Origin: Pseudomonas sp. P8_229
Lineage (GTDB): Bacteria > Pseudomonadota > Gammaproteobacteria > Pseudomonadales > Pseudomonadaceae
NCBI RefSeq assembly: GCF_034008635.1
Contig: NZ_CP125378.1
Span: 524,501-588,500 of the forward strand
DNA length: 64,000 bases
Reading direction: 5' to 3'
Shown: positions 8,459 to 25,117 of the stretch, one piece after another
Numbering within the stretch: the first letter of the stretch is position 1
Layout: every line of letters begins with the position of its first letter
Notes under the pieces: model-generated
What the model was told of the DNA's origin: nothing
The model's input: the letters and a program-made list of their open reading frames with translations, nothing else
Database searches by the model: none
Position numbers and translations under genes: made by a program

Positions 8459-8845
8459 GTGGGAGTGGGCTTGCTCACGAAGGGGCCGGCACATCCAGCA
8501 TCCATGTCAACTGACCTGACGCCTTCGTCGGAACGCCGCCCGGAGCAAGCCCGCTCCCACACTGGATTGGTGGTGGATGACGGATTCGGGGCTGGTCGAA
8601 ATCAAGGGTGGGAGTGGGCTTGCTCACGAAGGGGTTGGCACATTCAGCATCAATGTCGACTGATCTGACGCCTTCGCGAGCAAGCCCGCTCCCACAGTAG
8701 ATTGGTGGTGGATGGAGGATTCGGGGCTGGTCGAAATCAAGGGTGGGAGTGGGCTTGCTCACGAAGGGGCCGGCTCATCCAGAATCAATGTCAACTGACC
8801 TGACGCCTTCGTCGGAACGCCGCCCGGAGCAAGCTCACTCCCACG
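8459..8845. repeat. Tandem REPIN array, left arm (three units)
   Basis: Three REPINs (8459-8562, 8609-8697, 8743-8845) of the form GTGGGAGTGGGCTTGCTCACGAAGG ... GCAAGCCCGCTCCCAC are separated by a nearly identical spacer of about 45 bases that starts TGGATTGGTGGTGGATG and ends TCGAAATCAAGGG. Units 1 and 3 carry a 14-base longer right REP (an inserted TCGGAACGCCGCCCG). The conserved spacer shows that whole units were amplified, not independently inserted. Confidence 0.92.
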
Positions 8846-8893: not shown

Positions 8894-9352
8894 TCACACC
8901 CAGATCGCATCCCATAACGGATAGTCACCGAGTTTTTCCACCAGTCCGGCCCGCAATGGATTAGCGACTACATAGCGAGCAAGTTTCACCAGGTCCTCCT
9001 CTCGCCGTAATGCATGGTCATGAAAACCTTGCTGCCAGAGGCTTCCAGTTCTGCCGGCCGCCTCGTTGATTGAACGAGCACTCAAGGATTTGACTTGGCA
9101 CATCAATTGACCAAGTGTTCCTTTTTGCAACTGGATCAGCCAATGAAAATGATCCGGCATGACCACCCACGCCAATGTGTCGGCAACCCCCTCCTCCTGC
9201 GCCAGTCTGAACTGGTTCACGAGCAACCGGCCGAGTCTGTAATCCTTGAACACTGGTTCACGCCCTAAGGTGTTGGCAGTTAGAAGGTAGATCTGGCTCT
9301 CTTCGCAATGGCGACCGGTTCGCAGGCGATGTGATGAGTAACGTTCGGGCAT
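8894..9352 (-). CDS. REP-associated tyrosine transposase (RAYT, Y1_Tnp/IS200-like)
   Basis: The 152-residue product starts MPERYSSHRLRTGRH and has the HUH metal-binding motif in VMPDHFHWLIQL (His68, His70) and the catalytic tyrosine in LARYVVANPLRAGLV (Tyr127). These are hallmarks of RAYTs, single-copy chromosomal relatives of IS200/IS605 transposases that nick REP hairpins and are held to spread REPINs. The frame extends to 9406 but the RAYT N-terminus fits the ATG at 9352. The gene lies inside a tandem array of matching REPINs on both sides. Confidence 0.93.
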   Translation of the reverse strand: MPERYSSHRLRTGRHCEESQIYLLTANTLGREPVFKDYRLGRLLVNQFRLAQEEGVADTLAWVVMPDHFHWLIQLQKGTLGQLMCQVKSLSARSINEAAGRTGSLWQQGFHDHALRREEDLVKLARYVVANPLRAGLVEKLGDYPLWDAIWV

Positions 9353-9454
9353 TCCTTTGCCTTGTTCATGGTTGAATCGAGAAAAGGCTAGATCAGCCAG
9401 CACCATAGGCCGCGCATGTTTGTTGGCAGCATGTGTCTGCCATCCAGATCAAGG

Positions 9455-9963
9455 ATGGAAGTGGGCTTGCTCACGAAGGGGCCGGCACATTCAGCATCAA
9501 TGTCGACTGATCTGACGCCTTCGTCGGAACGCCGCCCGGAGCAAGCCCGCTCCCACAGTAGATTGGTGGTGGATGGAGGATTCGGGGCTGGTCGAAATCA
9601 AGGGTGGGAGTGGGCTTGCTCACGAAGGGGTTGGCACATCCAGCATCCATGTCGCCTGGCCTGACGCCTTCGCGAGCAAGCCCGCTCCCACAGTAGATTG
9701 GTGGTGGATGGAGGATTCGGGGCTGGTCGAAATCAAGGGTGGGAGTGGGCTTGCTCACGAAGGGGCCGGCACATCCAGCATCAATGTCGACTGATCTGAC
9801 GCCTTCGCGAGCAAGCCCGCTCCCACAGTAGATTGGTGGTGGATGGAGGATTCGGGGCTGGTCGAAATCAAGGGTGGGAGTGGGCTTGCTCACGAAGGGG
9901 CCGGAACATCCGGCATCAATGTCGACTGACATGACGCCTTCGCGAGCAAGCTCGCTCCCACAG
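9455..9963. repeat. Tandem REPIN array, right arm (four units)
   Basis: Four REPINs (9455-9558, 9604-9693, 9739-9828, 9874-9963) continue the array after the RAYT gene with the same spacer (GTAGATTGGTGGTGGATGG ... TCGAAATCAAGGG). The last three starts are exactly 135 bases apart. The first unit has a mutated left REP (TGGAAGTGGGC) and the 14-base longer right REP, like units 1 and 3 of the left arm. Confidence 0.92.
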
Positions 9964-9993
9964 TGTGGCATCAGCGTTTCCAGATGGCGGGCA

Positions 9994-10026
9994 CAAAAAA
10001 ACCGGAGCCAAGGCTCCGGTTTTTTC
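9994..10026. terminator. Bidirectional rho-independent terminator after the cio operon
   Basis: A perfect stem ACCGGAGCC-AA-GGCTCCGGT (10001-10020) is flanked by six A on the left and six T on the right. It lies 5 bases past the stop codon of the DUF2474 gene and so ends the minus-strand cio operon. Confidence 0.92.
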
Positions 10027-10030
10027 ATTA

Positions 10031-10186
10031 TCAGTGGATCCTCATCCCTGCTGCATACATCGCCAGTTTCAGCAGGCTCGCCACTACTGCGAGTGACACC
10101 ACACTGCCCAGCCAGATCAACAACAACCAGCCCAGGCGCTTGTACCAGCGGCTGGATCTGACCTCACGCGAATCAATGGTAGCCAT
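10031..10186 (-). CDS. DUF2474 small membrane protein, cio operon
   Basis: A 51-residue frame (MATIDSREVRSSRWYKRLGW...) overlaps the end of cioB by 14 bases. It has a basic N-terminus and one hydrophobic helix (LLLIWLGSVVSLAVVASLL). DUF2474 proteins are usually encoded just behind cytochrome bd-type oxidase subunit II, and the position here fits. By analogy with CydX it may be a small accessory subunit of the oxidase; that role is inference. Confidence 0.82.
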   Translation of the reverse strand: MATIDSREVRSSRWYKRLGWLLLIWLGSVVSLAVVASLLKLAMYAAGMRIH

Positions 10187-11189
10187 CGCCAATCCTCACT
10201 TTGCCGCGAAATACGTAGTAGCTCCAGAAGGTGTACATCAGGATCACCGGCAGGATGAACAGTGCGCCGATCAGGGCGAACAACTGGCTCGACGGCGGTG
10301 ACGCGGCGGCCCAGATGCTCACCGACGGCGGGATGATGTTTGGCCAGATGCTCAGTGCCAGACCGATGTAACCGAGGAACATCAGCACCAGGGTGAACAC
10401 GAACGGCCAGTGGGTGTGGCACTGACGCAAGGTGCGCAGCAAGCCGAACAACGCCAGCAGCGCCAGCACCACCAACCCGGCAAACACCATCAGGTGCCCA
10501 TGGCTGGACCAGCGCGAGGCCAGTTCCGGGTGCAGTAGCAGGGTCCACACGCCGATCACCACCACCATCGCCAGCAGCAACCACGCCAATGGCCGGGTGA
10601 ACAGACGCATCCGCGATTCGAGCATGCCTTCGGTCTTGACCAGCAACCAGGTGCTGCCCAGCAGCGCATAAGCCACCACCAGACCAACGCCGCACACCAG
10701 CGGGAACGGCGCCAGCCAGTCCAGGCCACCACCGGCAAACTGCCGATCCACCACGGGAATACCCGATACGTACGCGCCGATCACCACGCCCTGAGAGAAC
10801 GTCGCCAGCAGCGAGCCGCCGATGAACGCCTTGTCCCACCAATGGCGTTTGTGCGGTGACGACTTGAAGCGAAACTCGAACGCCACGCCACGGAAAATCA
10901 GTCCGCAGAGCATCAGGATCAGCGGCAGGTACAACGCTTCCAGAATCACTCCATACGCCAGCGGAAAAGCGCCATACAACGCCGCGCCACCGAGCACCAG
11001 CCAGGTTTCGTTGCCGTCCCAGACCGGGGCGACGGTGTTCATCATCACGTCGCGCTCCTGCTCATCGGGGATCAGCGGAAACAGGATCCCCAGCCCCAGA
11101 TCGAAGCCGTCCATGATCACGTACATCATCACCCCGAAGGCAATGATCACGCCCCAGATCAACGAGAGATCGATACCTTGAATACCCAT
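10173..11189 (-). CDS. cioB: Cytochrome bd-type (cyanide-insensitive) quinol oxidase subunit II
   Basis: The 338-residue protein has about eight membrane helices and the N-terminal CydB signature (VMMYVIMDGFDLGLGILFPLI, followed by NTVAPVWDGNETWLVLGG). With CioA it forms a terminal oxidase of the inner membrane that oxidises ubiquinol and reduces O2 to water. AAGGAG lies about 10 bases upstream of the ATG. It follows cioA by 17 bases and overlaps the DUF2474 gene. Confidence 0.95.
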   Translation of the reverse strand: MGIQGIDLSLIWGVIIAFGVMMYVIMDGFDLGLGILFPLIPDEQERDVMMNTVAPVWDGNETWLVLGGAALYGAFPLAYGVILEALYLPLILMLCGLIFRGVAFEFRFKSSPHKRHWWDKAFIGGSLLATFSQGVVIGAYVSGIPVVDRQFAGGGLDWLAPFPLVCGVGLVVAYALLGSTWLLVKTEGMLESRMRLFTRPLAWLLLAMVVVIGVWTLLLHPELASRWSSHGHLMVFAGLVVLALLALFGLLRTLRQCHTHWPFVFTLVLMFLGYIGLALSIWPNIIPPSVSIWAAASPPSSQLFALIGALFILPVILMYTFWSYYVFRGKVRIGDGYH

Positions 11190-11206
11190 GATTCAATGCT
11201 CCTTTA

Positions 11207-12622
11207 TCAGTGGATCCGGGTCGCGGATTCAAGGTGATCGGTCGCTGCCGAAAGAGGCCGGCGCGGTGTCTGCAAATGTTCATCCGCAGGCGGATGTTCG
11301 TGATGCGGCTGCGGACCTTTGCGTACCAGTTTCATCATGTAGCCGATGCCCACAGTGAACACCGAGCAGTAGATCACCACGAACAGCAGCAACGAGGTGC
11401 TCATCTGCGCCACCGAGTGGTGGGACGCCGCGTCATGGGTACGCATCAGGCCGTACACCACCCACGGCTGACGCCCTACTTCGGTAGTGATCCAGCCGGC
11501 CAGCAGCGCGATCAACCCGCTCGGCCCCATCAGCAATACCAGACGCTGGAAGCCACGATGCTGATAGAGCTTGCCACCACGGCGCAGGGCCAGGCCCAGC
11601 AGACCGACGAGGATCATCAACATGCCCAGCCCGGCCATCACGCGGAAGCTCCAGAAGATGATGGTCGAGTTCGGCCGATCCTCTTTCGGGAAGCTCTTGA
11701 GCGCCGGGATCTGCTTGTCGAGGCTGTGGGTCAGGATCAGGCTGCCCAGGTACGGGATTTCCAGCGCGTACTGGGTTTTCTCCGCCTGCATGTCGGGGAT
11801 GCCGAACAGCACCAGCGGCGTCGGACCGTTGTCGGCGTTTTCCCAGTGACCTTCGATGGCGGCGATTTTTGCCGGTTGATGCTCCAGGGTGTTCAAGCCA
11901 TGGGCGTCACCGACCACTGCCTGAATCGGCGCAACGATCAGCGCCATCCACAACGCCATGGAAAACATCTTGCGCACCGGCGCCGTGTTGTTGCCGCGCA
12001 GCAAGTGCCAGGCCGCCGACGCACCGACGAAGAACGACGTCGCAACGAACGCGGCAATCGCCATGTGCGCCAGACGGAACGGAAACGAGGGGTTGAACAC
12101 GATCGCCAGCCAGTCCAGCGGCATCACCCGACCGTCGACGATTTCGAAGCCCTGCGGGGTCTGCATCCAACTGTTGGAGGCGAGAATCCAGAAGGTCGAA
12201 ATCAACGTGCCGATGGCAACCATCACCGTGGCAAAGAAGTGCAGGCCACGGCCGACGCGGTTCCAGCCGAACAGCATGACCCCGAGGAAACCGGCCTCAA
12301 GGAAGAACGCCGTCAGCACCTCATAGGTCAGCAACGGCCCGGTGATGCTCCCGGCAAAGTCCGAGAACCCGCTCCAGTTGGTACCGAACTGGTACGCCAT
12401 GACCAGCCCCGAGACCACACCCATGCCGAAGTTGACGGCAAAGATCTTCGACCAGAAGTGGTAGAGATCGCGGTAGGTGTCGTTATGGGTTTTCAGCCAC
12501 AGGCCTTCGAGCACCGCAAGGAAACTCGCCAGGCCGATGGTGATCGCCGGGAAGATAATGTGGAACGAAACCGTGAACGCGAATTGAATTCGCGCCAGGT
12601 CCAGTGCCTCCATGTTGAGCAT
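11207..12622 (-). CDS. cioA: Cytochrome bd-type (cyanide-insensitive) quinol oxidase subunit I
   Basis: The 471-residue protein has the CydA features: an N-terminal His in TVSFHIIFPAITIG (haem ligand region) and the GWITTEVGRQPWVVYGLMRT signature. The periplasmic Q-loop is short, as in CioA-type enzymes. It carries the haems and the quinol site. The start at 12622 (MLNMEALDLARIQF) is preferred; the frame continues 12 codons upstream. The 107-base gap from the YdeP-type gene contains a GC hairpin (12675-12690) without a T run, so readthrough from that gene is possible. Confidence 0.94.
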   Translation of the reverse strand: MLNMEALDLARIQFAFTVSFHIIFPAITIGLASFLAVLEGLWLKTHNDTYRDLYHFWSKIFAVNFGMGVVSGLVMAYQFGTNWSGFSDFAGSITGPLLTYEVLTAFFLEAGFLGVMLFGWNRVGRGLHFFATVMVAIGTLISTFWILASNSWMQTPQGFEIVDGRVMPLDWLAIVFNPSFPFRLAHMAIAAFVATSFFVGASAAWHLLRGNNTAPVRKMFSMALWMALIVAPIQAVVGDAHGLNTLEHQPAKIAAIEGHWENADNGPTPLVLFGIPDMQAEKTQYALEIPYLGSLILTHSLDKQIPALKSFPKEDRPNSTIIFWSFRVMAGLGMLMILVGLLGLALRRGGKLYQHRGFQRLVLLMGPSGLIALLAGWITTEVGRQPWVVYGLMRTHDAASHHSVAQMSTSLLLFVVIYCSVFTVGIGYMMKLVRKGPQPHHEHPPADEHLQTPRRPLSAATDHLESATRIH

Positions 12623-12729
12623 GATGATGTCCTCATCCAGGCTGAAAAGCGGCAGCACGTCGCCGGGCCACCGCCAGGCGTGAACGCCTGCAGCCAGTCA
12701 AATTGCTATGATTTTTTATGAGTAGCGGG

Positions 12730-15054
12730 TCAGGCCACCGACGACGGGATCAGGTTGCTGACCTTGGCCGCTTCGAGGCGAATCGCGACGAATTTCGAGG
12801 TCGGCGTGTAGGTCCGGTCGCCGTAGCTTTCCAGCGGCACCAGCGGATTGGTTTCCGGGTAGTAAGCCGCCGCCTGACCGGGCGGAATGTCGTAGGCGAT
12901 CAGGGTGAAACCGCTGACCCGACGCTCACGGTCGTCATTCCACAGCGCCACCAGATCGACCTTCTGCCCCGGTTCGAAGCCTAGTCGCTGGATGTCCTGC
13001 TCGTTGGCGAAGATCACGTCGCGCATGCCGTAGACCCCGCGATAACGGTCGTCGAGGCCGTACAGCGTGGTGTTGTACTGATCGTGCGAACGCATGGTCT
13101 GCAGGATCAGATGCGGCTTGACCGGCAGGTTGCGCACGCCTTCGCTGATCAGGTGTTCCGGCAGCACGCACGGGGTGAACTGGGCTTTGCCGGACTCGGT
13201 GTTCCAGACCCGGTCCGAGGCGTCGTTGCCAAGGTGGAAGCCACCCGGGGTCAGCAGTTTTTCGTTGAAGTTCTCGAAACCCGGAATCACGTCGCCGATC
13301 AGGTTGCGGATGCGCCCGTAGTCGCCCACGACCCACTCCCAGTCGATTGGATGTTTGCCCAACGTGGCGGCGGCAATCCCGGCAATGATCGCCGGCTCGG
13401 ATTTCAAATGCGCCGACTTCGGTTTCAACTGGCCGAACGACAAATGCACCATGCTGAAGGTGTCTTCCACGGTCACGCCTTGCGGACCTTCGGCCTGGAT
13501 GTCGATGTCGGTGCGACCCAGGCACGGCAGGATCAACGCGTCACGCCCGGTCACCAGATGGCTGCGGTTGAGCTTGGTCGAGATATGTACGGTCAGGTCG
13601 AGTTTGCGCATCGCTTCGTGGGTACGCGGGGTGTCCGGTGTGGCTTGGGCAAAGTTGCCGCCCAGACCGATGAACACCTTGGCTTCGCCACGCTCCATGG
13701 CACCGATCGCCATGACGGTGTTGTGGCCGTGCATGCGCGGCACTTTGAAGTTGAAGCGGTTTTCCAGTGCGTCCATCAACTCCTTGGGCGCCAGTTCGTT
13801 GATGCCCATGGTGCGGTCGCCCTGCACGTTACTGTGACCGCGCACCGGCGACAGACCGGCACCCGGACGACCAACGTTGCCGCGCAACAGTTGCAGGTTG
13901 ATGACTTCCTGCAGGGTCGGCACAGAGTGCACGTGTTGGGTCAGGCCCATGGCCCAGCACATGATCACGCTCTTGGCTCGGCCATACATGCGCGCTGCCA
14001 GTTCGATGTCGTGCAACGGCACACCGGATTGCTCGACGATGTGCTCCCAGCTCGTGGCTTCGACTTCGGCCAGATAGCTGTCCAGACCTGAGGTGTGCTC
14101 AGCAATGAACGCGTGGTCGAACACCGGTTCGCCGCCGCTGGCCTGAGCCTCGCGCTCCCACTGCAGGAGGAATTTGGCCATACCGCGAATCATCGCCATG
14201 TCGCCACCCAGCGCCGGGCGGAAGTACGCGGTGTTGGTCGCTTCCCAGCCGTTGCTGAGCATCTCGATCGGGTTCTGCGGGTTCTGGAAACGTTCCAGGC
14301 CACGCTCCTTGAGCGGGTTGATGCACACCACTTGCGCACCGCGTTTTACCGCTTCACGCAGCGGTTCGAGCATGCGCGGGTGGTTGGTGCCGGGGTTCTG
14401 GCCGATGACGAAAATCGCGTCGGCGTGGTGCAGGTCCTCGTAGACCACGGTGCCTTTGCCGACGCCGAGGGTCTCGCCCATGCTCACCGCACTGGCTTCG
14501 TGGCACATGTTCGAGCAGTCGGGGAAATTGTTGGTGCCAAAGGCGCGGACGAACAACTGGTAGAGAAACGCCGCTTCGTTGCTGGCCCGGCCCGAGGTGT
14601 AGAACTCGGCCTCGTGCGGCGATTTCAGGCCCTTGAGGTGCTCGGCGATCAGCGCGAATGCCTCTTCCCAGGTGGTTTCCACATAGCGGTCGATCCGCGC
14701 GTCGTAACGCATCGGATGAGTCAGGCGGCCCTGATATTCCAGCCAGTAATCGCTCTGTTCAGCCAGGCTCGACACCGTGTACTTGTTGAAGAACACCGGG
14801 TCGACCAGGCGCCCGGTGGCCTCCCAGTTCACCGCTTTGGCGCCGTTCTCGCAGAACTTGAGCATGCTCGCGCCGGGGGCTTCACCCCACGCACAGCCCG
14901 GGCAGTCGAAACCGCCGTTCTGGTTGGTCTTGAGCATGGCGCGGATGTTTTTCAGGGCGTTTTCACTGCCCAGCCAGCTTTTGGTCAGGCTGATCACAGC
15001 CCCCCAACCCGCAGCGGCACCCTTGTAAGGTTTGTAACGGTCGACTTGTGACAT
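12730..15054 (-). CDS. FdhF/YdeP-family molybdopterin oxidoreductase
   Basis: The 774-residue protein belongs to the molybdopterin-bis(guanine dinucleotide) oxidoreductases of the YdeP branch. The N-terminus holds the cysteine motif CPGC (Cys51, Cys54) and FCENGAKAV (Cys68), and the metal-ligand position is a Cys in DCSNMCHEASAV (Cys184), where E. coli formate dehydrogenase H has selenocysteine. No partner electron-transfer subunit is encoded beside it. There is no signal peptide, so it is cytoplasmic. The substrate is unknown: YdeP is associated with acid resistance in E. coli, and formate has not been shown. The gene is divergent from moaA across a long regulatory region. Confidence 0.9.
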   Translation of the reverse strand: MSQVDRYKPYKGAAAGWGAVISLTKSWLGSENALKNIRAMLKTNQNGGFDCPGCAWGEAPGASMLKFCENGAKAVNWEATGRLVDPVFFNKYTVSSLAEQSDYWLEYQGRLTHPMRYDARIDRYVETTWEEAFALIAEHLKGLKSPHEAEFYTSGRASNEAAFLYQLFVRAFGTNNFPDCSNMCHEASAVSMGETLGVGKGTVVYEDLHHADAIFVIGQNPGTNHPRMLEPLREAVKRGAQVVCINPLKERGLERFQNPQNPIEMLSNGWEATNTAYFRPALGGDMAMIRGMAKFLLQWEREAQASGGEPVFDHAFIAEHTSGLDSYLAEVEATSWEHIVEQSGVPLHDIELAARMYGRAKSVIMCWAMGLTQHVHSVPTLQEVINLQLLRGNVGRPGAGLSPVRGHSNVQGDRTMGINELAPKELMDALENRFNFKVPRMHGHNTVMAIGAMERGEAKVFIGLGGNFAQATPDTPRTHEAMRKLDLTVHISTKLNRSHLVTGRDALILPCLGRTDIDIQAEGPQGVTVEDTFSMVHLSFGQLKPKSAHLKSEPAIIAGIAAATLGKHPIDWEWVVGDYGRIRNLIGDVIPGFENFNEKLLTPGGFHLGNDASDRVWNTESGKAQFTPCVLPEHLISEGVRNLPVKPHLILQTMRSHDQYNTTLYGLDDRYRGVYGMRDVIFANEQDIQRLGFEPGQKVDLVALWNDDRERRVSGFTLIAYDIPPGQAAAYYPETNPLVPLESYGDRTYTPTSKFVAIRLEAAKVSNLIPSSVA

Positions 15055-15411
15055 GGGACATCTCCATGACGATGCACACAGGCGTGAACCTGATCTTGGT
15101 TAAACAGCGACGGCCGACTTTGCACAGCAATAAAGCGGTCGTTTCAGTTGCCGGAACAAGGATATGAACCGATACAAAATATTGTCTAATCGCTATTTAT
15201 GACCACATTATCGAAACCATCTATCACGGTTAAAAACCCTTTATTCACGGGGCCTTGCGAAACTAAAGCGGTAACTTTCAGTGAGAAATAATTCATCATC
15301 GACGTAATCAATCAGCCGTTCATTAACAGTGATTGGACGCCTTCAAAAGTTGCCCATAACCTGCGCCAACCTGTTCCGTTAATACGGACTTCTCACTCCT
15401 GCGAGGCTGTC
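15055..15411. promoter_or_regulatory. Divergent ydeP-like / moaA control region
   Basis: This 357-base AT-richer gap has no gene. It contains two elements also found in the moaB / LysR intergenic region: a three-block motif (TGTCTAATC at 15183, ACCACATTATCGA at 15202, CTATC at 15221) and the decamer GATTGGACGC at 15331-15340. TTGGAC of the decamer is followed after 18 bases by TAACCT, giving a possible -35/-10 pair reading toward moaA. Confidence 0.6.
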
Positions 15412-16410
15412 ATGTCAGAGCGTGTCTTGATCGATGGTTACAACCGCCGCGTCGACTATCTGCGCATGTCGGTCACCGACCGCTGCGACTTCCGCTGCGT
15501 CTATTGCATGGCCGAGGACATGCAGTTTCTGCCGCGCCAGCAGGTACTGACGCTGGAAGAGATCTATCAACTGGCGCAGAGCTTCGTGGGGCTGGGCACG
15601 CGCAAAATCCGCCTCACTGGCGGTGAGCCGCTGATCCGTCCGGGCGTGGTCAAGTTGTGCGAGCAGATCGCCGCCCTGCCCGGCCTGCGTGAGCTGTGCA
15701 TGACCACCAATGGCTCGCAGTTGGGCAAACTCGCGGCGCCGCTGTTCGACGCCGGGGTCAAGCGCCTGAATATCAGCCTCGACAGCCTCGACCCCGAGCG
15801 CTTCAGGCAAATGACCCGCACCGGTGATCTGGCGCAGGTGATCAACGGCATCGATGCCGCGCGCAAGGCCGGTTTCACCCGCACTAAACTCAACGTGGTG
15901 GTGATGCAGGGGCGCAACGATCAGGAGATCAACGACCTGGTGAGTTTCGCCATCGACCGCCAGCTCGACATCTCCTTCATCGAGGAAATGCCGTTGGGGA
16001 TCATCAGCGAACACAGCCGGGCGGAGTCGTTTTTCTCCAGTGCCCAGGTACGCGAGAAAATCGCCGAACGCTACACCCTGATCGAGTCAGCGGAGTCGAC
16101 CCAGGGCCCGTCGCGCTACTGGCGCCTGGCCGAAGCGCCGGATATTCGCCTGGGCTTTATCTCGCCGCACAGCCACAATTTCTGCGGCACCTGCAACCGG
16201 GTGCGGCTGACCGTGGAGGGCCGCCTGCTACTGTGTCTGGGTAACGAGCATTCGGTGGATCTCAAAGCCGTGCTGCGCGCTCATCCGGGGCAACCGCAGC
16301 GGCTGGAGAAAGCCATTATCGAGGCGATGAAACTCAAGCCGTATCGGCACAATTTCGAAGTGAACGACGACGTCCAGGTCGTGCGCTTCATGAACATGAC
16401 CGGCGGTTGA
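15412..16410 (+). CDS. moaA: GTP 3',8-cyclase MoaA
   Basis: The 332-residue radical-SAM enzyme carries the N-terminal CxxxCxxC motif (Cys25, Cys29, Cys32 in [12 protein letters not shown]) and the C-terminal cluster motif [18 protein letters not shown], and ends in Gly-Gly as MoaA proteins do. It catalyses the first step of molybdenum cofactor synthesis, turning GTP into 3',8-cyclo-H2GTP for MoaC. Its position next to a molybdoenzyme gene suggests a dedicated supply of cofactor. Confidence 0.97.
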
Positions 16411-16446
16411 GACCGCCCTCACCCTGCGTAACCGGGATCGCCCAGC

Positions 16447-17346
16447 ATGATCATCAGACCCAAGGTCAACCAATTCGCCATCCTCTTCACCCTCAAGGGT
16501 TCGATTGCCAAACGCATCGCCCTGCGCACCCTGATGGTCACCCTGCTGGCCTCGGCCATCGTCCTGATTGAAATCCTTCACCCGAGCAACTTCACCAAGG
16601 TCAACGCCACGCCGTTCACCCTGCTCGGGCTGTCGCTGTCGATCTTCATGAATTTTCGCAACAACGCCTGCTATGACCGCTGGTACGAAGCGCGCAAGGC
16701 CTGGGGGGATGTGCTGGTGCACATTCGTTCGGTGATCCGCGAAACCCATGTCATCCGTGAATCGGTGCAGCGCAAACCGTTGCTGCTCAATCTCTGCGGG
16801 TTTGCTCATGCGCTGAATGCGCGGTTGCGCCGGGAAAGCGAAGCGGCCGCCAGCCGTGCCTGGATCACGCCGCAACACGATACGCAGGTGCCGGATTACA
16901 GCGGGCGGATTCTGCAGCAGGTCGGCCAACAGTGTTCCGACCTGCATCAGAGCGGCGAGCTGACCGAATGGCGCTACATGCTCCTGGCCAATCACCTGAC
17001 CAGCCTGACCCAGGCACAAGCGGTGTGCGAACGGATCAAAAACACCCCGCTGCCCTTCCCCTACACCTTGCTGCTGCACCGCACGATCTACCTGTTCTGC
17101 ATCCTGCTGCCGTTCGCCATGGCCGAACCGCTGGGCTGGCTGACGCCGTTGTTCACGGCGATTGTCAGCTACACCTTCTTTGGTCTGGATGCGATTGCCG
17201 ATGAACTGGAAGATCCGTTCGGCCGCGACGAAAACGACCTGGCAACTGACTCGCTGGTACGCACCATCGAGCGCGATATCCTGTCCGAACTGGGTGTGAC
17301 CGACCTGCCGCCAATGCTGCTGCCGGTGGACTATGTGCTGAGCTGA
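16447..17346 (+). CDS. Bestrophin-family anion channel
   Basis: The 299-residue membrane protein has the bestrophin signature (FMNFRNNACYDRWYEARKAWG, read in two parts around residues 68-88) and about four membrane helices. Bacterial bestrophins form pentameric ion channels of the inner membrane. It starts 36 bases after moaA in the same direction, so it may be co-transcribed, although a functional link to cofactor synthesis is not evident. Confidence 0.9.
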   Translation: MIIRPKVNQFAILFTLKGSIAKRIALRTLMVTLLASAIVLIEILHPSNFTKVNATPFTLLGLSLSIFMNFRNNACYDRWYEARKAWGDVLVHIRSVIRETHVIRESVQRKPLLLNLCGFAHALNARLRRESEAAASRAWITPQHDTQVPDYSGRILQQVGQQCSDLHQSGELTEWRYMLLANHLTSLTQAQAVCERIKNTPLPFPYTLLLHRTIYLFCILLPFAMAEPLGWLTPLFTAIVSYTFFGLDAIADELEDPFGRDENDLATDSLVRTIERDILSELGVTDLPPMLLPVDYVLS

Positions 17347-17370
17347 TCCCGACCTCCACACACATTCCCC

Positions 17371-17998
17371 TGTAGGAGTGAGCCTGCTCACGAATGCGTC
17401 TGGTCAGACGACACTATGTTGAATGTGCCGGCCTCTTCGCGAGCAGGCTCGCTCCCACAGGCTTGAAGTACATCTCGAAAAATGGATCAGCATCACAAAT
17501 CCAAATGTAGGAGTGAGCCTGCTCGCGATGACGGTGGCACAGTCAGCATATGCGCTGACTAATCGACCGCTATCGCGAGCAGGCTCACTCCTACAGGTTT
17601 GATGTCCACCCACAAAATGGCCGAGCACCACATAACCAATGTGGGAGTGAGCCTGCTCACGAATGCGTCAGGTCAGACAACGCGATGTTGAATGTACCGG
17701 CCTCTTCGCGAGCAAGCTCGCTCCCACAGGTTTGAAGTACATCTCGTAAAATGGATCAGCATCACAAATCCAAATGTAGGAGCGAGCCTGCTCGCGATGA
17801 CGGTGGCACAGTCAGCATATGCGCTGACTAATCGACCGCTATCGCGAGCAGGCTCACTCCTACAGGTTTGATGTCCACCCACAAAATGGCCGAGCACCAC
17901 ATAACCAATGTAGGAGTGAGCCTGCTCACGAATGCGTCAGGTCAGACGACGCGATGTTGAATGTACCGGCCTCTTCGCGAGCAAGCTCGCTCCCACAG
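17371..17998. repeat. Tandem array of five REPINs with a 269-bp composite period
   Basis: REPINs lie at 17371-17460, 17506-17596, 17640-17729, 17775-17865 and 17909-17998. Two alternating types with their own spacers (one containing ATGGATCAGCATCACAAATC, the other GATGTCCACCCACAAAATGG) form a unit that recurs every 269 bases, giving 2.3 copies. The array fills the 670-base gap between the convergent bestrophin and moeA genes. Confidence 0.93.
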
Positions 17999-18016
17999 GT
18001 TTGATTGGTGCCAGGG

Positions 18017-19222
18017 TCAGAAGAGTTCGCTGAAGGGAATGAAGCGCAGCGGATCACCCATGCGATGGGTGCTGTTTTCCGGCACTTCCACCAGGCCGTC
18101 GGCCCAGGTTGCGCCGAGCAAGACACCGGAGCTTTGATTCGGATACAGCACCGCACTCCCCGCCTCCAGCCGCACCCGCAGGTATTCGCGGCGGCTGCCT
18201 GCCTTGTGCCAGTCGAATCCGGCATTCACCGAAAAGCTCAGTGGCATGACATCTTCCACGCCCTGGATACGCAGCAGATACGGCCGCGCCAGCAGCCCGA
18301 AGGTCACCAGTGCCGAGGTCGGATTGCCCGGCAGGCCGATCACCGGCACCGTGCCGAAATGGCCCACGGTCAATGGCTTGCCAGGCTTGATCGCCAGCTT
18401 CCACAGCAGCGGTTTGCCGTCCTCGCGCAGCACTTGCCCGAGGCAATCGGCATCGCCGGCAGACACGCCGCCGGTGGTCAGGATCAAGTCGGCCGCCACT
18501 TGCAGTTGTTCAAGCTTGAGCCGTGTCTGCGCCGGGCGGTCCGGGAGAATCCCGGCGTCGATCACCTCGCAGCCCAGTTCACGCAACCAGTGACCGAGCA
18601 ACACGCGGTTGCTGTTGTAGATGCTGCCGGGGCGCAGCGGCTGGCCCGGTTCGACCAGTTCGTCACCGGTCGACAGCAGCGCCACGCGTGGGCGACGCAC
18701 CACGTGCAACTGCGCCAGCCCCTGCCCGGCGGCGACCGCCAACTCGAATGGCCCAAGGCGTTTGCCGGCGCGCAGCAGGGTATCGCCAACGCGATTTTCC
18801 TGGCCTTGTGCGCGAATGTTCTGCCCTGCCTTCAGCGGCTGCAAGAAGCGCACGCGGCCGTCCTCCAGCACTTCGACGTTTTCCTGCATCTCAACACTGG
18901 TGGCGCCGGGCGGCAGCGGTGCGCCGGTAAAAATCCGCGCGCAGGTGCCAGGCAGCAACGCGTCCGGCGCCAGCCCGGCGTAGACCTTTTGAGATACCTT
19001 CAGCGGCTGGCGATGCAAGTCAGCAAGATTGAGCGCGTAACCGTCCATGGCACTGTTCGGCCACGGCGGCAGGTCGAGTGTCGCCACCAGATCACTGGCC
19101 AGCACCCGCCCACGCGCATCGTCGAGCGGCAACAGTTCGCTGTCGGCCAGACGTTGCTCATTGGCCATGCCCAGCAATTGGTCGAGGGCATCCTCGACCG
19201 GCATCAACGGTGCCTTGCTCAT
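18017..19222 (-). CDS. moeA: Molybdopterin molybdotransferase MoeA
   Basis: The 401-residue product inserts molybdate into adenylylated molybdopterin. The sequence shows the family's N-terminal DALDQLLGMA and the PNSAMDGYAL segment, the MoCF-like domain with STGDELVEPGQPLRPGSIYNSN (read in two parts) and TTGGVSAGDAD, and the C-terminal domain IV. The ATG overlaps the moaB stop codon by 4 bases (ATGA), so the two genes are translationally coupled. Confidence 0.96.
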   Translation of the reverse strand: MSKAPLMPVEDALDQLLGMANEQRLADSELLPLDDARGRVLASDLVATLDLPPWPNSAMDGYALNLADLHRQPLKVSQKVYAGLAPDALLPGTCARIFTGAPLPPGATSVEMQENVEVLEDGRVRFLQPLKAGQNIRAQGQENRVGDTLLRAGKRLGPFELAVAAGQGLAQLHVVRRPRVALLSTGDELVEPGQPLRPGSIYNSNRVLLGHWLRELGCEVIDAGILPDRPAQTRLKLEQLQVAADLILTTGGVSAGDADCLGQVLREDGKPLLWKLAIKPGKPLTVGHFGTVPVIGLPGNPTSALVTFGLLARPYLLRIQGVEDVMPLSFSVNAGFDWHKAGSRREYLRVRLEAGSAVLYPNQSSGVLLGATWADGLVEVPENSTHRMGDPLRFIPFSELF

Positions 19223-19758
19223 CCGCGTGGCCCACAGGCTTGCACTGCCTTGAGGTGTGGCACGAAGTTGCACGGGCGATGACGGTTATCCAGTTGCTCG
19301 GCGAGAATGCCTTCCCACGCGGTGCGGCAAGCACCGGTCGAGCCCGGCAGGCAGCACACCAACGTGCCGTTGGACAACCCGGCCAGCGCTCGGCTTTGCA
19401 CGGTGGACGTGCCGATGTCGAGAATCGAAATGGCGCGGAACAACTCACCAAAACCGTCGATCTGCTTGTCGAGCAGACAGGCGACTGCTTCGGGGGTGCT
19501 GTCGCGGCCGGTGAACCCGGTGCCGCCGGTGATCAGTACCACCTGAATCGTGTCGTCGGCAATCCAGTGAGCAACCTGGGCGCGAATCTTGTACAGGTCA
19601 TCCTTGAGCAGGTTGCGCTCGCTCAGGGTGTGCCCGGCCTCCAGCAGACGGCTGACCAGCAACTGACCCGAAGTATCGCTGGCGTAATCGCGGGTATCGC
19701 TGACCGTCAGCACGGCGATGTTCAGGGGGACAAACAGGGCATCCGCTTTCGCACTCAT
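19219..19758 (-). CDS. moaB: Molybdenum cofactor biosynthesis protein MoaB (molybdopterin adenylyltransferase-type)
   Basis: The 179-residue protein has the MoaB/Mog fold signatures VLTVSDTRDYASDTSG and LITGGTGFTGRDSTPEA. Members adenylylate molybdopterin before metal insertion by MoeA, with which this gene overlaps by 4 bases. In E. coli Mog does this reaction; pseudomonads rely on MoaB-type proteins. It is divergent from the LysR gene at 20044. Confidence 0.95.
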   Translation of the reverse strand: MSAKADALFVPLNIAVLTVSDTRDYASDTSGQLLVSRLLEAGHTLSERNLLKDDLYKIRAQVAHWIADDTIQVVLITGGTGFTGRDSTPEAVACLLDKQIDGFGELFRAISILDIGTSTVQSRALAGLSNGTLVCCLPGSTGACRTAWEGILAEQLDNRHRPCNFVPHLKAVQACGPRG

Positions 19759-20043
19759 GGGACTCTCCAGCAGTAGTTGATCACATTGCCCAGCAGCCTA
19801 AGTGCCACTTATGAGTACTGTCTAATCACTCTGACCAACCACATTATCGACCCGCTCTATCGGTCCCGTTGACCTCGACCAAAGCCTTTGAAATCATGGG
19901 CGATAGAGCTGATCGATAGGCTTTTCAATTCTTCCGATTGGACGCAAACACAGTCAGATGAGATCGTCTCGCCTCGCGTTTTTCGTGCGCTGTGCGCATC
20001 TGCGTCAATACTCATTCCAATTTCTCAACGAGCAGGTGCCATC
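19759..20043. promoter_or_regulatory. Divergent moaB-moeA / LysR control region
   Basis: This gap carries the same three-block motif as the ydeP-like/moaA region, with identical spacing (TGTCTAATC 19819, ACCACATTATCGA 19838, CTATC 19857). It also has the decamer GATTGGACGC at 19936-19945 and the exact inverted pair GCTCTATCG (19854-19862) / CGATAGAGC (19901-19909). An additional CGATAG lies at 19914. The arrangement suits binding by the adjacent LysR-type regulator. Confidence 0.6.
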
Positions 20044-20943
20044 GTGGACATCAAACAACTCAAGTTCCTGATCGCACTGGATGAAACCCGACACTTCGGC
20101 CAGGCCGCCGCACGCTGCCATATCACCCAGCCAACCTTGTCGATGCGTCTGCGCAACCTGGAAGATGAGCTGGATCTGGTGCTGGTCAATCGCGGCCAGC
20201 GTTTTGAAGGTTTCACCCAGGCCGGTGAACGGGTACTGGCCTGGGCGCGCACGTTGCTGGCCGCCCATGACGGCTTGTTCGCCGAAGCGGCGGCGTGCCG
20301 CGGGCAACTGGTCGGCAGCCTGCGTCTGGGGCTGGTGCCGTTGAGCAGCTTCAACCCGGTCAATTACATTCAGGGTTTGTCCGCCACTTACCCCGAGCTG
20401 AAATTCAGCCTGTCGTCGCTCAGTTCCAACGAGATCATCGAGGGGCTGGGCAACAACCAGCTGGATCTGGGCGTGTGCTATCTGGACCACGTCAACCCGA
20501 ACTACTTCGAGTTTTTCGAGATCGGCGAAACCCGCGTCGGGCTGCTTTACGACAACCGTCACTTCCATTTCGAAGGCTCGGAAATGAGCTGGGAAGACGC
20601 CGCCGAACTGCCGCTGGGAATGATCACCACCGGCATGCACTACCGCAAATCCATCGACCTGAGCTTCCGCAGCCGCGGGCTCAATCCGCAGCCGATTCTG
20701 GAAAGCGATTCGACCTATCAGCTGTTGCAGGCGATTCACCAGGGCTTCTGCTGCTCGATCATGCCGCTGGACAGCGGGCTGGAACAGCCGATCGAACATT
20801 TGTCGTTCATGCAGTTGCCGGATGCCAGCGTGCTCGCGCCGCTGGGGCTGGTGATGCGCAAGACCGAGCCGCGTTCGGCGATTGCCGAGAAGTGCTTTGC
20901 CGAGGCGCGCAAGTTATTTGGGGTTGAGGCTCCAGTTGTTTGA
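20044..20943 (+). CDS. LysR-family regulator of the Mo-cofactor island (proposed)
   Basis: The 299-residue protein starts at a GTG (VDIKQLKFLIALDETRHFG) and has an N-terminal winged helix-turn-helix (FGQAAARCHITQPTLSMRLRN, in two parts, near residues 17-38) and a typical effector-binding domain. The frame extends to 19888 but those residues fall in the promoter region with its repeats, so GTG 20044 is preferred. It is divergent from moaB-moeA and upstream of fdhD-moaCDE. Control of these genes and of the ydeP-like/moaA pair is inferred from shared promoter motifs. Confidence 0.88.
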   Translation: MDIKQLKFLIALDETRHFGQAAARCHITQPTLSMRLRNLEDELDLVLVNRGQRFEGFTQAGERVLAWARTLLAAHDGLFAEAAACRGQLVGSLRLGLVPLSSFNPVNYIQGLSATYPELKFSLSSLSSNEIIEGLGNNQLDLGVCYLDHVNPNYFEFFEIGETRVGLLYDNRHFHFEGSEMSWEDAAELPLGMITTGMHYRKSIDLSFRSRGLNPQPILESDSTYQLLQAIHQGFCCSIMPLDSGLEQPIEHLSFMQLPDASVLAPLGLVMRKTEPRSAIAEKCFAEARKLFGVEAPVV

Positions 20944-20981
20944 GTGACCTGCCCAGACATTGATGCTGGATGTCAGGCCGT

Positions 20982-21052
20982 CTTCGCGAGCAAGCCCGCT
21001 CCCACAGGTTGAATGCATTTCAAATGTGGGAGCGGGCTTGCTCGCGAAGAGG
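20982..21052. repeat. Outward-facing REP pair
   Basis: TTCGCGAGCAAGCCCGCTCC and its complement are arranged tail-to-tail with a short 20-base centre, opposite to the usual REPIN order. It lies between the LysR gene and fdhD. Confidence 0.88.
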
Positions 21053-21124
21053 CCCGACCAGCCAACACACATTTCGGATGTGAAGGTGGTGATCGACCCA
21101 CCCAATCACCAGATCAGAACAAGC

Positions 21125-21148
21125 GATTGGACGCACTTTTAACTCCCC
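21125..21148 (+). promoter_or_regulatory. GATTGGACGC promoter element upstream of fdhD
   Basis: The decamer GATTGGACGC (21125-21134) found in the two other Mo-island control regions recurs about 55 bases before fdhD. TTGGAC is followed after 18 bases by TAGCCT, resembling the TTGGAC-N18-TAACCT seen before moaA, so it may be a promoter. Confidence 0.45.
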
Positions 21149-21187
21149 CGTAGCCTGACCTGACTTCAGCGCTTCGGGACTTTCAAG

Positions 21188-22030
21188 ATGCTGTGCCAAG
21201 TTGATCCAACAGTCGAACCGGGCGATGCCAACGCCCCCGCGCCGCAACCGTCACAAGTGGCGTTTCGCGAATACCTGCCGCACGCCCCGCTCTCGCACGC
21301 CGCCCTGGCCTCGGAAATCGCCCTGGCGATCTCCTTCAACGGCCTGAGCCAGGCAGTGATGATGGTCTCGCCCGGCAACCTCGAAGATTTCATCCGTGGC
21401 TTCAGCCTGAGCAACGCGATCATCGACAGTGTCGACGAGATCTACGACATCCGCCTGAGCCATTTCGATCAGGCCTGCCAGGCTGACGTGCAGATTTCCA
21501 GTCGCGCCTTCTGGGCGCTGAAAGACCACCGTCGACAAATGGCCGGCAGCAGCGGCTGCGGCATCTGTGGTGTCGAAGCGCTGGAGCAGGCGTTGCCGCA
21601 ACTGCAGATTCTGCAACCCTGCGCACTGCCGCCGGCTGCGCATTTCGACGGCATCCGCCAACGCATCGAACAGGCCCAGCAACTGGCCCGCAGCAGCGGC
21701 GCCCTGCACGCGGCGCTGTACTTCGATGCCAGCGGTGAGGCGCTGCTGTGCCGTGAAGACATCGGCCGGCACAACGCCCTCGACAAGCTGATCGGTGCAA
21801 TGCAAATCGCCGAGGTCGATGCGCGCCAGGGCTTTGTGGTGGTCACCAGTCGTTGCAGCCTTGAACTGATCCACAAAGCGGTGCGCGCCCGCCTCGGCAC
21901 CCTTGTCAGCCTGTCCGCCCCGACGGCGTTGACCGTGCGCTGGGCGCTCAAGCACAGGCTCAATCTGATCCACGTCCCGCACCGCAACGCCCCCCGAATC
22001 TACAGCCCGATCCAGGAGCTAACGCAATGA
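21188..22030 (+). CDS. fdhD: FdhD sulfurtransferase (formate dehydrogenase accessory protein)
   Basis: The 280-residue protein has the FdhD signature with the sulfur-relay cysteines in [10 protein letters not shown] (Cys124, Cys127) and the conserved [15 protein letters not shown] and [10 protein letters not shown] segments. FdhD carries sulfur from IscS to the bis-MGD cofactor of formate-dehydrogenase-type enzymes. The only such enzyme in the window is the YdeP-type protein at 12730-15054, a likely client. The stop overlaps the moaC start by 4 bases. Confidence 0.95.
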
Positions 22031-22512
22031 GCAACACCCTCACCCACCTCGACGATCAGGGCCGCGCCAACATGGTCGACGTCAGCGACAAAGCACCGAC
22101 CCGCCGCGAAGCCACCGCGCAAGCCTGGGTGCAGATGCGCCCGGAAACGCTGCAGATGATCCAGGCCAACGGTCACCCCAAGGGCGATGTGTTTGCCGTG
22201 GCGCGGATCGCCGGGATTCAAGCGGCCAAGCGCACCCACGAGCTGATCCCGCTGTGCCACGCGCTGTTGCTCAGTTCGATTCACGTCGAACTCAAGGCCT
22301 GCGAACCGGACCGCGTGCAAATCACCAGCACCTGCCGCCTCACCGGCCAGACCGGGGTCGAACTCGAAGCCCTGACCGCCGCCAGCGTCGCGGCACTGAC
22401 CATTTACGACATGTGCAAGGCTGTGGACCGGGCGATGGTCATCGGCGACATCCGCCTGCTCAGCAAACAGGGCGGTCGCTCCGGGCACTTTCAATGGGAG
22501 GACGTGCAATGA
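22027..22512 (+). CDS. moaC: Cyclic pyranopterin monophosphate synthase MoaC
   Basis: The 161-residue protein shows the MoaC landmarks [26 protein letters not shown] and [11 protein letters not shown]. It converts 3',8-cyclo-H2GTP from MoaA to cyclic pyranopterin monophosphate. It overlaps fdhD and moaD by 4 bases each, showing a tight operon fdhD-moaC-moaD-moaE. Confidence 0.97.
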
Positions 22513-22760
22513 TCCTGATCAACTACTTCGCCAGCTACCGTGATCGCCTCAATCTGGGCGGCGAAAAAATCCCCCTGACCAACGACCTGACCAGCATCGA
22601 GGACGTGCGGCAGATGCTCATGGCCCGTGGTGAGGAATGGCGCGAAGTCCTCGGCGCCGGCAACCTGATGTGTGCGTTGAATCAGGAGCTGTGCCAACCG
22701 AGCGCAGCCATCGAAGACTTCGACGAGATCGCGTTTTTTCCACCGGTCACCGGGGGCTGA
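22509..22760 (+). CDS. moaD: Molybdopterin synthase sulfur carrier subunit MoaD
   Basis: The 83-residue ubiquitin-like protein ends in the Gly-Gly tail (FPPVTGG) that is thiocarboxylated and donates sulfur to the dithiolene of molybdopterin. The start ATG overlaps the moaC stop. It pairs with MoaE, whose gene begins 2 bases after the moaD stop. Confidence 0.94.
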
Positions 22761-22762
22761 GC

Positions 22763-23224
22763 ATGACGGTACGAGTCCAGCATAAAAGTTTCGATGTCGG
22801 CCAATTGACCGCCGACTTGCATGCGCGTAATCCACGGGTCGGCGCAGTGGTGAATTTCATCGGCTACGTGCGCGATATGAACATCGGCCAAAGCGTGAAT
22901 GAGCTGTTCCTCGAACACTATCCAGGCATGACCGAAAAGGCCCTCGAACAGATCGCCCGAGAGGCCCGCGAGCGTTGGCCGCTGCTGGGGGTGGAGATTG
23001 TGCATCGGGTCGGCGCACTGTCTGTCAGCGAGCCGATCGTGTTCGTCGGCGTCAGCAGCAAGCACCGGCACATGGCGTTCGAAGCCTGCGCCTTCATCAT
23101 GGATGTGCTCAAGACCCGTGCGCCGTTCTGGAAGCGCGAGAGCACGGCGCAGGGTTCGCATTGGGTCGAGGCGCGGGAGAGCGACCAGAATGCGGCACTG
23201 CGCTGGAGCCTGGCGCATGCCTGA
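22763..23224 (+). CDS. moaE: Molybdopterin synthase catalytic subunit MoaE
   Basis: The 153-residue product has the MoaE signatures GAVVNFIGYVRD, LEHYPGMTEKAL, RVGALSVSEPIVFVGVSS and a C-terminal PFWKRE motif with the catalytic lysine. With MoaD it forms the heterotetramer converting cyclic pyranopterin monophosphate into molybdopterin. I chose the ATG at 22763, 2 bases after moaD. Confidence 0.95.
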   Translation: MTVRVQHKSFDVGQLTADLHARNPRVGAVVNFIGYVRDMNIGQSVNELFLEHYPGMTEKALEQIAREARERWPLLGVEIVHRVGALSVSEPIVFVGVSSKHRHMAFEACAFIMDVLKTRAPFWKRESTAQGSHWVEARESDQNAALRWSLAHA

Positions 23225-23234
23225 AGATCAAGAG

Positions 23235-23413
23235 CCCCTCACCCTAACCCTCTCCCGGAGGGAGAGGGGACTGATTGGGGGATATTGAAGAAATTCACCG
23301 AATCGAAAGATTGGCTCTGAATCCATAATCGACTCAATCTTCAGGTCGATGGATAACGCCAGACACCTCGGTCGGCCCCCTCTCCCTCTGGGAGAGGGCT
23401 GGGGTGAGGGTTG
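23235..23413. repeat. CCCTCACCCTAACCCTCTCCC-type inverted repeat element
   Basis: Two hairpin-forming ends (23235-23270 with CCCTCTCCCGGAGGGAGAGG; 23376-23413 with TCTCCCTCTGGGAGAGGG) in inverted order enclose about 105 bases. The same family recurs at 42673-42849 and as a short hairpin at 59773. It is a second intergenic repeat family distinct from the REPINs. Confidence 0.8.
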
Positions 23414-23463
23414 AAAGTCTGATTAGATAGCAACTCCGCCAGGATTAAATTCCGGAGTCTCGT

Positions 23464-24807
23464 TTGAGCACAGCGCCCAACAACCTGCCCCGCCCCGATC
23501 CCGTCACGCTGCGCCAGGCCTGGCGCTTCTGGTTCAAGCTCGGCTGCATCGGCTTCGGCGGCCCGGCCGGGCAGATCGCGATCATGCATCAGGAACTGGT
23601 CGAACGCCGGCGCTGGATCTCCGAACGGCGTTTCCTGCATGCGCTCAACTACTGCATGTTGCTGCCCGGCCCCGAGGCCCAGCAACTGGCGACCTACATT
23701 GGCTGGCTGTTGCATCGCACCTGGGGCGGGGTGATTGCCGGAGCGCTGTTCGTGCTGCCGTCGTTGTTCATCCTGATTGCCCTGTCGTGGGTGTACATCG
23801 CGTTCGGCGACGTGCCGGTGGTGGCCGGGATCTTTTACGGAATCAAACCGGCGGTGACCGCAATTGTGTTGCACGCGGCGCATCGCATCGGCTCGCGGGC
23901 GCTGAAAAACAGTTGGCTGTGGGCCATCGCCGGAGCGTCGTTCGTGGCGATTTTTGCGTTCAACCTGCCGTTCCCGTTGATCGTGCTCGGTGCGGCGCTG
24001 ATCGGTTATGTCGGCGGGCGACTGGCGCCGCAACGCTTCGACAATGGCGGCCAGCGCAGCAGCGCCAAATCCTTCGGTCCGGCGTTGATCGATGACGACA
24101 CGCCAACACCTGAACATGCGCGATTCAGCCTGCCGAAGCTGTGGCGCTTGCTGTTGGTCGGCGCGGCGCTGTGGTGCTTGCCGATGGGGCTGCTGACCGC
24201 GCTGTTCGGCTGGGACGGCACGTTCACGCAAATGGGCTGGTTTTTCACCAAGGCCGCGTTGCTGACGTTTGGCGGCGCTTATGCGGTGTTGCCGTATGTC
24301 TATCAGGGCGCCGTCGGGCATTATGGCTGGCTGACGCCGACACAGATGATCGATGGCCTCGCGCTGGGCGAAACCACGCCCGGGCCGCTGATCATGGTGG
24401 TGGCGTTTGTCGGTTTCATCGGCGGTTATGTGCAACCGGCGTTCGGTGCGGAACATGCGTTCGCTGCTGGCGCACTGGCGGCGACGCTGGTGACCTGGTT
24501 CACCTTCCTGCCCTCGTTTCTGTTCATCCTCGCTGGCGGGCCGCTGGTGGAGTCGACCCACAACGAACTGAAGTTCACCGCACCGTTGACCGCGATTACC
24601 GCTGCGGTGGTCGGGGTGATTCTCAACCTGGCGTGTTTCTTCGCTTATCACGTGTTCTGGCCGAGCGGTTTTGCCGGGCAAGCGGATGTGTTTTCGATCG
24701 GGCTGGCACTGCTGGCCGCGTTGGCGCTGTTCGTTTTCAAACGCGGGGTGATTGCAGTGTTGATCGTTTGCGCCCTCGCCGGGCTGGGCTTTCACCTGCT
24801 GCGCTGA
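23464..24807 (+). CDS. chrA: Chromate efflux transporter ChrA
   Basis: The 447-residue membrane protein consists of two homologous halves of the CHR family. The first carries FKLGCIGFGGPAGQIAIMHQ and the second GWFFTKAALLTFGGAYAVLPYV (in two parts), the typical duplicated FGG motif region. It exports chromate across the inner membrane. The start is a TTG with GGAG 7 bases upstream. No chrB-type regulator is adjacent. Confidence 0.92.
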   Translation: MSTAPNNLPRPDPVTLRQAWRFWFKLGCIGFGGPAGQIAIMHQELVERRRWISERRFLHALNYCMLLPGPEAQQLATYIGWLLHRTWGGVIAGALFVLPSLFILIALSWVYIAFGDVPVVAGIFYGIKPAVTAIVLHAAHRIGSRALKNSWLWAIAGASFVAIFAFNLPFPLIVLGAALIGYVGGRLAPQRFDNGGQRSSAKSFGPALIDDDTPTPEHARFSLPKLWRLLLVGAALWCLPMGLLTALFGWDGTFTQMGWFFTKAALLTFGGAYAVLPYVYQGAVGHYGWLTPTQMIDGLALGETTPGPLIMVVAFVGFIGGYVQPAFGAEHAFAAGALAATLVTWFTFLPSFLFILAGGPLVESTHNELKFTAPLTAITAAVVGVILNLACFFAYHVFWPSGFAGQADVFSIGLALLAALALFVFKRGVIAVLIVCALAGLGFHLLR

Positions 24808-24934
24808 GCGTCGATCAATGGTACAGGGGCGCAATCATCGGTTTACACACCCGCAGATTGCCCCTTACTATCCGGGCACACCGGTCGGCGGGCCTGCCCC
24901 GCCACCGACGTTTTCCGCCAACGGAAACACGCGT

Positions 24935-25012
24935 ATGAGTACGTCACCACAACAAGCAAAAATGTTGAACGTCTCCGCTGTGTGCGCCCTCTGTCACAGG
25001 GGCCGCGCATGA
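24935..25012 (+). CDS. Mini-ORF with two cysteines, possible leader peptide
   Basis: A 25-codon frame (MSTSPQQAKMLNVSAVCALCH followed by RGRA, two cysteines three apart) lies in the 550-base gap after chrA. Its stop overlaps the start of the next mini-ORF by 4 bases (ATGA), an arrangement typical of real coupled genes. Its short length and the Cys-x-x-Cys are reminiscent of regulatory leader peptides, but I see no attenuator hairpin pair and no strong ribosome binding site. Confidence 0.35.
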   Translation: MSTSPQQAKMLNVSAVCALCHRGRA

Positions 25013-25092: not shown

Positions 25093-25117
25093 TTTCTGTC
25101 AGTTAGAAAAGATCCAT

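Follow-up and report, generated by a model that had tools for sequence, protein, structure and literature searches.

A putative LysR-type operator linking a molybdenum formate dehydrogenase to its cofactor genes in Pseudomonas

A 43-bp motif that recurs in the 64,000-nucleotide stretch of Pseudomonas sp. P8_229 DNA analyzed here (the window) is, with good confidence, a putative operator of LysR1, the LysR-type regulator encoded at 20044, through which a molybdenum formate dehydrogenase and the genes for its cofactor would be activated, with formate as the most likely co-inducer. Sequence comparisons point to a real and conserved LysR regulon for this enzyme and its cofactor, of a familiar type and apparently undescribed so far in the searched literature.

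Results

As had been reported in an earlier note on this DNA, three blocks (TGTCTAATC-N10-ACCACATTATCGA-N6-CTATC) occur in the same order and with starts 19 and 38 bases apart, matching exactly on the forward strand at 15183-15225 and 19819-19861, with 27 specified letters common to both copies. The likeness had been judged unlikely to arise by chance and this judgement is borne out, with no match in 100 dinucleotide-shuffled versions of the window (0 expected by chance), no third place in the whole genome (6,365,050 bases) at ≤3 mismatches, and no match in the same 6,365,050 bases for the motif read backward. The earlier count of two copies was incomplete. Both are present, along with three more on the minus strand (starting at 19902, 15297, and 21091), and each reported copy is half of an inverted pair.

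A scoring matrix was derived from 157 distinct sites, drawn from the window and 80 related loci (80 of the 556 confirmed candidates obtained by scanning the LysR protein against named genome contigs), and gives the consensus YGTCYAATC-N9-RACY-N3-T-N-ATCGA-N5-TCTATC for the 43-bp site. Five copies in the window score 21.1–62.0 by this matrix, against a best score of -5.9 in 20 mononucleotide shuffles. Four of them form inverted pairs, one in the fdhF|moaA region and one in the moaB|lysR region, and a weak fifth stands alone before fdhD. Every copy is oriented away from its presumed target gene, and a -10-like element is present 17–18 nt beyond the site (~9 nt for lysR).

Copy A (15183..15225, forward strand; score 62.0), an exact match to the motif with T-N11-A boxes at 15190/15202 (proximal) and 15211/15223 (distal), is the putative operator of fdhF (12730..15054, minus strand), which encodes an FdhF/YdeP family (ydeP-like) molybdopterin oxidoreductase and probable formate dehydrogenase (TIGR01701, 912 bits; cut-off, 582). 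The putative -10 of fdhF, a conserved TATCCT (15159..15164, minus strand), lies 18 nt beyond the site. Next after fdhF, also on the minus strand and presumably in one unit with it, come cydA and cydB (10173..12658), for subunits I and II of a bd-type oxidase; cydB exceeds the TIGR00203 cut-off, while cydA resembles bd oxidase models and scores below their cut-offs. The inverted partner of copy A, copy B (15297..15339, minus strand; score 39.0), would serve moaA (15412..16410, forward strand; above the TIGR02666 cut-off), with a conserved putative -10, TAACCT (15357..15362, forward strand), 17 nt beyond the site and a bestrophin-family gene (16447..17346, forward strand; PF25539, 328.8 bits) behind moaA.

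Copy C (19819..19861, forward strand; score 60.6), the second exact match, is the putative operator of moaB and then moeA (18017..19758, minus strand), with a conserved putative -10, TAGGCT (19795..19800, minus strand), 18 nt beyond; moaB exceeds the TIGR02667 cut-off and moeA has its best match in PRK10680 (349 bits; cut-off, 440). Its inverted partner, copy D (19902..19944, minus strand; score 42.9), stands before lysR1 (20044..20943, forward strand), a placement consistent with possible autoregulation. Putative copy E (21091..21133, minus strand), before fdhD, is weak, with a score of 21.1; a conserved putative -10, TAGCCT (21151..21156, forward strand), follows after 17 nt, and then fdhD, moaC (TIGR00129 and TIGR00581, above cut-off), and two genes that we take from their sequences to be moaD- and moaE-like (together 21188..23224, forward strand).

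Elsewhere in the window, arrays of tandemly repeated GAGCAAGC/GCTCGCTCCCAC-type units (periods, 135 and 269 bases) occupy 17371-18004, 9539-9964, and 8543-8811. We take these arrays to be REP-like, and an open reading frame at 8894-9406 presumably encodes a REP-associated transposase.

The LysR1 protein has both domains of a LysR-type regulator above cut-off (HTH_1, PF00126, 57.3 bits; LysR_substrate, PF03466, 96.8 bits), and its closest relative among the matches listed is 99% identical (Pseudomonas sp. H1h). Assignments as CidR, OxyR, or another listed equivalog were rejected, all falling below the NCBIfam cut-offs, and so was CynR, the nearest NCBIfam model, with a full-length match of 111.6 bits against a cut-off of 277.

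In LysR operators generally, a T-N11-A recognition box is accompanied by a second box nearer the promoter. This arrangement is found here, each site having two T-N11-A boxes (T7/A19 and T28/A40) with centers 21 bp apart, and both pairs are intact in all 140 non-redundant sites, these having been selected with the matrix. Within the site the information content averages 1.00 bit per position, against 0.19 and 0.08 in the 40-bp flanks, and the -10-like element contributes about half of the left-flank signal. A location next to the regulator gene or divergent from it, also typical of LysR operators, was found in 62/62 moaB|lysR regions, with the regulator-adjacent site lacking in 9 of the 80 loci, whose stretches contain no set gene other than lysR.

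The motif, which had been expected at the same promoters in relatives, was found there throughout. Using leave-one-out matrices from which near-identical sites were also left out, both orientations of the site were recovered in 44/44 fdhF|moaA regions, and at least one site in 62/62 moaB|lysR regions, 55 of which have both orientations (the inverted partner is absent from L010, L012, L081, L082, L083, L084, and L086). The best score among 530 dinucleotide shuffles was -8.1, and 10 of 489 control stretches of equal length from the same loci scored >15. Across both strands of 81 stretches, 250 sites scored >15, with ten at 10–15, one at 5–10, and none at 0–5; among 1620 random 350-base stretches, 82 overlapped a listed site and the remaining 1538 peaked at 14.0. 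As the matrix was trained on the same loci, these site and random-stretch counts show specificity and not discovery. Almost all of the sites scoring >15 (237 of 250 in 1.64 Mb) are found no more than 450 bp upstream of a set gene, facing away from that gene (moaB, 62; moaA, 56; lysR, 53; fdhF, 44; fdhD, 15; moaC, 3; moaD, 2; bestrophin, 2), and for the other 13 the gene expected from gene order is missing, farther away, or beyond the stretch end.

In four loci (L030, L032, L034, and L042) the fdhF-moaA pair is relocated and inverted, with the site pair travelling along. The nine loci free of sites (L031, L049, L059, L060, L061, L062, L065, L068, and L085) all have lysR as their sole set gene, which indicates that a site at the regulator gene itself can be done without in these loci. 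Five orphan lysR1 genes far from the targets (L059, L060, L061, L062, and L068) retain an upstream TTGGAC and TACAAT, with the rest of the site gone.

Toward the gene, the promoters present a distal dyad, a proximal box ending in GATTRGAC, and then TAnnCT after 17–18 nt, a consensus drawn from the promoters of fdhF (44), moaA (56), moaB (62), and fdhD (10). At the lysR promoters (50) a weaker -10-like element occurs ~9 nt past the site. Scans with consensus promoters returned one match per region, near shuffle level, and coincided with the putative -10 of fdhF only.

Across the genus, a degenerate site pattern matched at ≤3 mismatches in 193 of 298 Pseudomonas genomes; read backward as a control, the pattern matched in at least one genome (G079). 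All 30 loci picked with the pattern (among the matches listed, one per genome; seven of them, L087, L093, L103, L108, L110, L114, and L116, already among the matrix loci) adjoin fdhF/fdhF2, fdhD, moaA, moaB, lysR1, lysR2, or bestrophin. No set gene except bestrophin was recognized beside the site in L091, L094, and L098, which marks bestrophin as a set member by itself, and in L097 and L109 moaA carries the site away from any lysR.

A LysR match (E ≤ 1e-80; lysR1 and relatives taken together) is present in 277 of the 298 genomes and an FdhF match (E ≤ 1e-200) in 283. The site pattern occurs in 191/277 LysR-bearing vs 2/21 LysR-less genomes (Fisher p = 8e-8, kinship ignored), and FdhF in 276/277 vs 7/21 (p = 5e-18, kinship ignored). 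Where the LysR is ≥83% identical, 45 of 46 genomes have a pattern match among the matches listed. The pattern is strict, missing two genomes (G076 and G273) in which the matrix finds a site, and 86 of the 277 LysR-bearing genomes have no match to it. Of the seven FdhF-bearing genomes counted as LysR-less, four hold a damaged lysR2, cut by the contig end (G223, G076, and G273) or split over two frames (G080), beside sites scoring 32.0, 31.7, 27.4, and 24.2, respectively; G223 and G080 are the two LysR-less genomes with a pattern match. In G013 (L137/L146) and G240 (L138/L147), fdhD-fdhF2 is present with neither LysR nor site nearby, and G248 has FdhF at 47% only. In a sample of 194 genomes of the order, lysR2 adjoins fdhD in three genomes that belong to another genus of the family, with sites scoring 28, 25, and 14 (the last, L130, weak), and no site was found at L133, where a 47% LysR relative from another family is encoded.

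The paralogous regulator gene lysR2 precedes fdhD2-fdhF2, with the site between lysR2 and fdhD2; we take PA5179–PA5181 to be the P. aeruginosa counterparts of lysR2-fdhD2-fdhF2. In ten sampled cases LysR2 is 85–92% identical to LysR1 over residues 1–65 and 51–58% in the effector domain, and the LysR of L132 is 82% and 46% identical, compared with 38–43% over residues 1–65 for three unrelated LysRs of this genome. At the second fdhD-fdhF locus of this genome (L127, G000:C1:3275314-3278355), lysR2 has decayed to ~65 C-terminal residues and the operator copy is retained, forming the third match of the degenerate pattern in the genome (G000:C1:3276814; three mismatches; score, 30.4), before the fdhD-fdhF pair.

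Discussion

The suggestion of an operator for the LysR encoded at 20044 gains support from the LysR-box geometry, the adjacency to the LysR gene, the site shared with the paralogue, and co-occurrence over 298 genomes. The present analysis extends the earlier note by the pairing of copies in inverted orientation, by sites at the promoters of fdhD and bestrophin, by the paralogue, and by a likely formate signal. The operator reading is based on sequence, conservation, geometry, gene association, and co-occurrence, from which we infer binding, activation, the formate signal, and autoregulation. A LysR1 tetramer would cover the 43 bp, with the gene-distal dyad ATNGA-N5-TCNAT as the recognition box and the gene-proximal ATC-N9-GAY as the activation box. 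With centers 21 bp apart, both boxes would lie on one face of the DNA, and the proximal edge (GATTRGAC toward the gene) would overlap the -35 region. The order of distal dyad, proximal box, and -10 is the layout of LysR-activated promoters. With its co-inducer, most likely formate, LysR1 is predicted to activate fdhF(-cydAB), moaA(-bestrophin), and moaB-moeA, and probably also fdhD-moaCDE, such that formate dehydrogenase, its sulphurtransferase, and the cofactor pathway would be produced together. The shorter distance from the site to the -10-like element at lysR suggests autoregulation.

That formate is the signal of the LysR1 regulon is the likelier case and a reasonably probable one, the likely link coming from P. 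putida. In the available part of an RNA-seq study, formate raised expression of the FdhF/YdeP family genes PP_4596 and PP_0256, fdhD (PP_0257), moaA (PP_4597; log2FC, 2.4), and moaB-II (PP_4600; log2FC, 4.3), cioAB ranked with the most changed genes, and deletion of PP_0256-0257 or PP_4596 reduced formate tolerance (PMC10308882). As this set comprises fdhF-, fdhD-, moaA-, and moaB-type genes, formate is the likely signal. The locus numbers match the order of fdhF, moaA, and moaB in the window and in P. putida 31753 (L079), and we infer that the neighboring gene in KT2440 is the lysR1 orthologue; the cioAB of P. putida is located elsewhere. The main text of that paper, in the form available, has no occurrence of LysR and gives no regulator or operator. 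A search of open-licence papers listed none that names LysR1 or its operator in the title, the opening of the abstract, or the available text, and the regulator was not found in the available text of PMC12455946, PMC12314914, and PMC6449761. The LysR in the available text of PMC12421819 is PP_4156, an insertion site whose link to these genes is not stated there.

Among the closest known systems is that of FdsR of Cupriavidus necator, a LysR-type regulator with a formate-inducible system (half-maximum, 130 μM) described in the accessible part of PMC7057948. The two have in common the regulator type, the tie to a formate dehydrogenase (a probable one for LysR1), and, for LysR1 as a prediction, a response to formate. 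The putative LysR1 regulon differs in that moaA, moaB-moeA, fdhD, and a bestrophin gene are joined to an enzyme of the FdhF/YdeP type. CynR, besides the equivalog cut-off that LysR1 falls far below, differs in gene neighborhood. The ModE site and the Moco riboswitch are known controls of molybdenum cofactor genes. Neither a Moco riboswitch nor another Rfam element matched at gathering score in window positions 9000-26000, and unlike the riboswitch the LysR1 site stands upstream of the putative -10 and not within the leader.

Several other explanations of the site were weighed. Recent duplication, a mobile repeat, or chance could be entertained given two copies with 27 common specified letters and repeat arrays nearby (17371-18004), yet the site is kept in 44/44 and 62/62 regions with unconserved flanks, lies outside the arrays, and has a chance expectation of 0, leaving this account with a negligible probability. 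The 17–18 nt spacing held in four promoter classes would suit GATTRGAC and TAnnCT being the promoter of an alternative sigma factor, with no activator site, but the ~30 further conserved bases upstream with their two T-N11-A dyads, and the different -10 distance at lysR, render that highly improbable. It is less far-fetched, and still improbable, that another transcription factor (e.g., a global molybdenum, redox, or acid regulator) binds the site with LysR as a mere neighbor. Sites away from any lysR, at bestrophin in L091, L094, and L098 and at moaA in L097 and L109, favor such a factor, against which stand the two-box LysR geometry, the adjoining of sites to lysR1 or lysR2 even at ~65% identity and outside the genus (L130, weak, 14), and the lack of a site where LysR is truly absent beside fdhD-fdhF2 (G013 and G240).

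The most serious competitor, somewhat unlikely on balance, keeps the operator with the LysR family and changes the signal to molybdate, cofactor shortage, cyanide, or another small anion. The cyanate regulator CynR being the nearest NCBIfam model (112 bits, far below the cut-off of 277) and the presence of a bd-type oxidase and a bestrophin channel within or beside the units lean in this direction, while the induction of a matching gene set by formate in P. putida (available part of PMC10308882) and the existence of a LysR-type, formate-responsive FdsR (accessible part of PMC7057948) favor formate.

Under the preferred reading of the site as a LysR1 operator, the near-identical DNA-binding domains and operators of LysR1 and LysR2, combined with effector domains that have drifted to 51–58% identity, may mean that two signals act on one operator set. 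We tentatively extend this to a joint scheme, held at less than even confidence, in which LysR1 and LysR2 bring two signals (formate, with cofactor or redox status as a possible second) to shared operators, lysR1 has inherited fdhD2-fdhF2 where lysR2 has decayed, as in this genome, and the bestrophin under the same operator may be a channel for formate or another anion.

For a molybdenum formate dehydrogenase response of P. putida that lacks a regulator in the searched papers, the analysis proposes a regulator together with its operator and target genes. Engineering of P. putida is directed at formate tolerance and C1 use, for which a single LysR setting both the enzyme and the supply of its cofactor would be of practical value and might serve as a formate sensor. 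The regulon also suggests a role for the bestrophin channel, and would offer a natural case of paralogous regulators with one common operator code.
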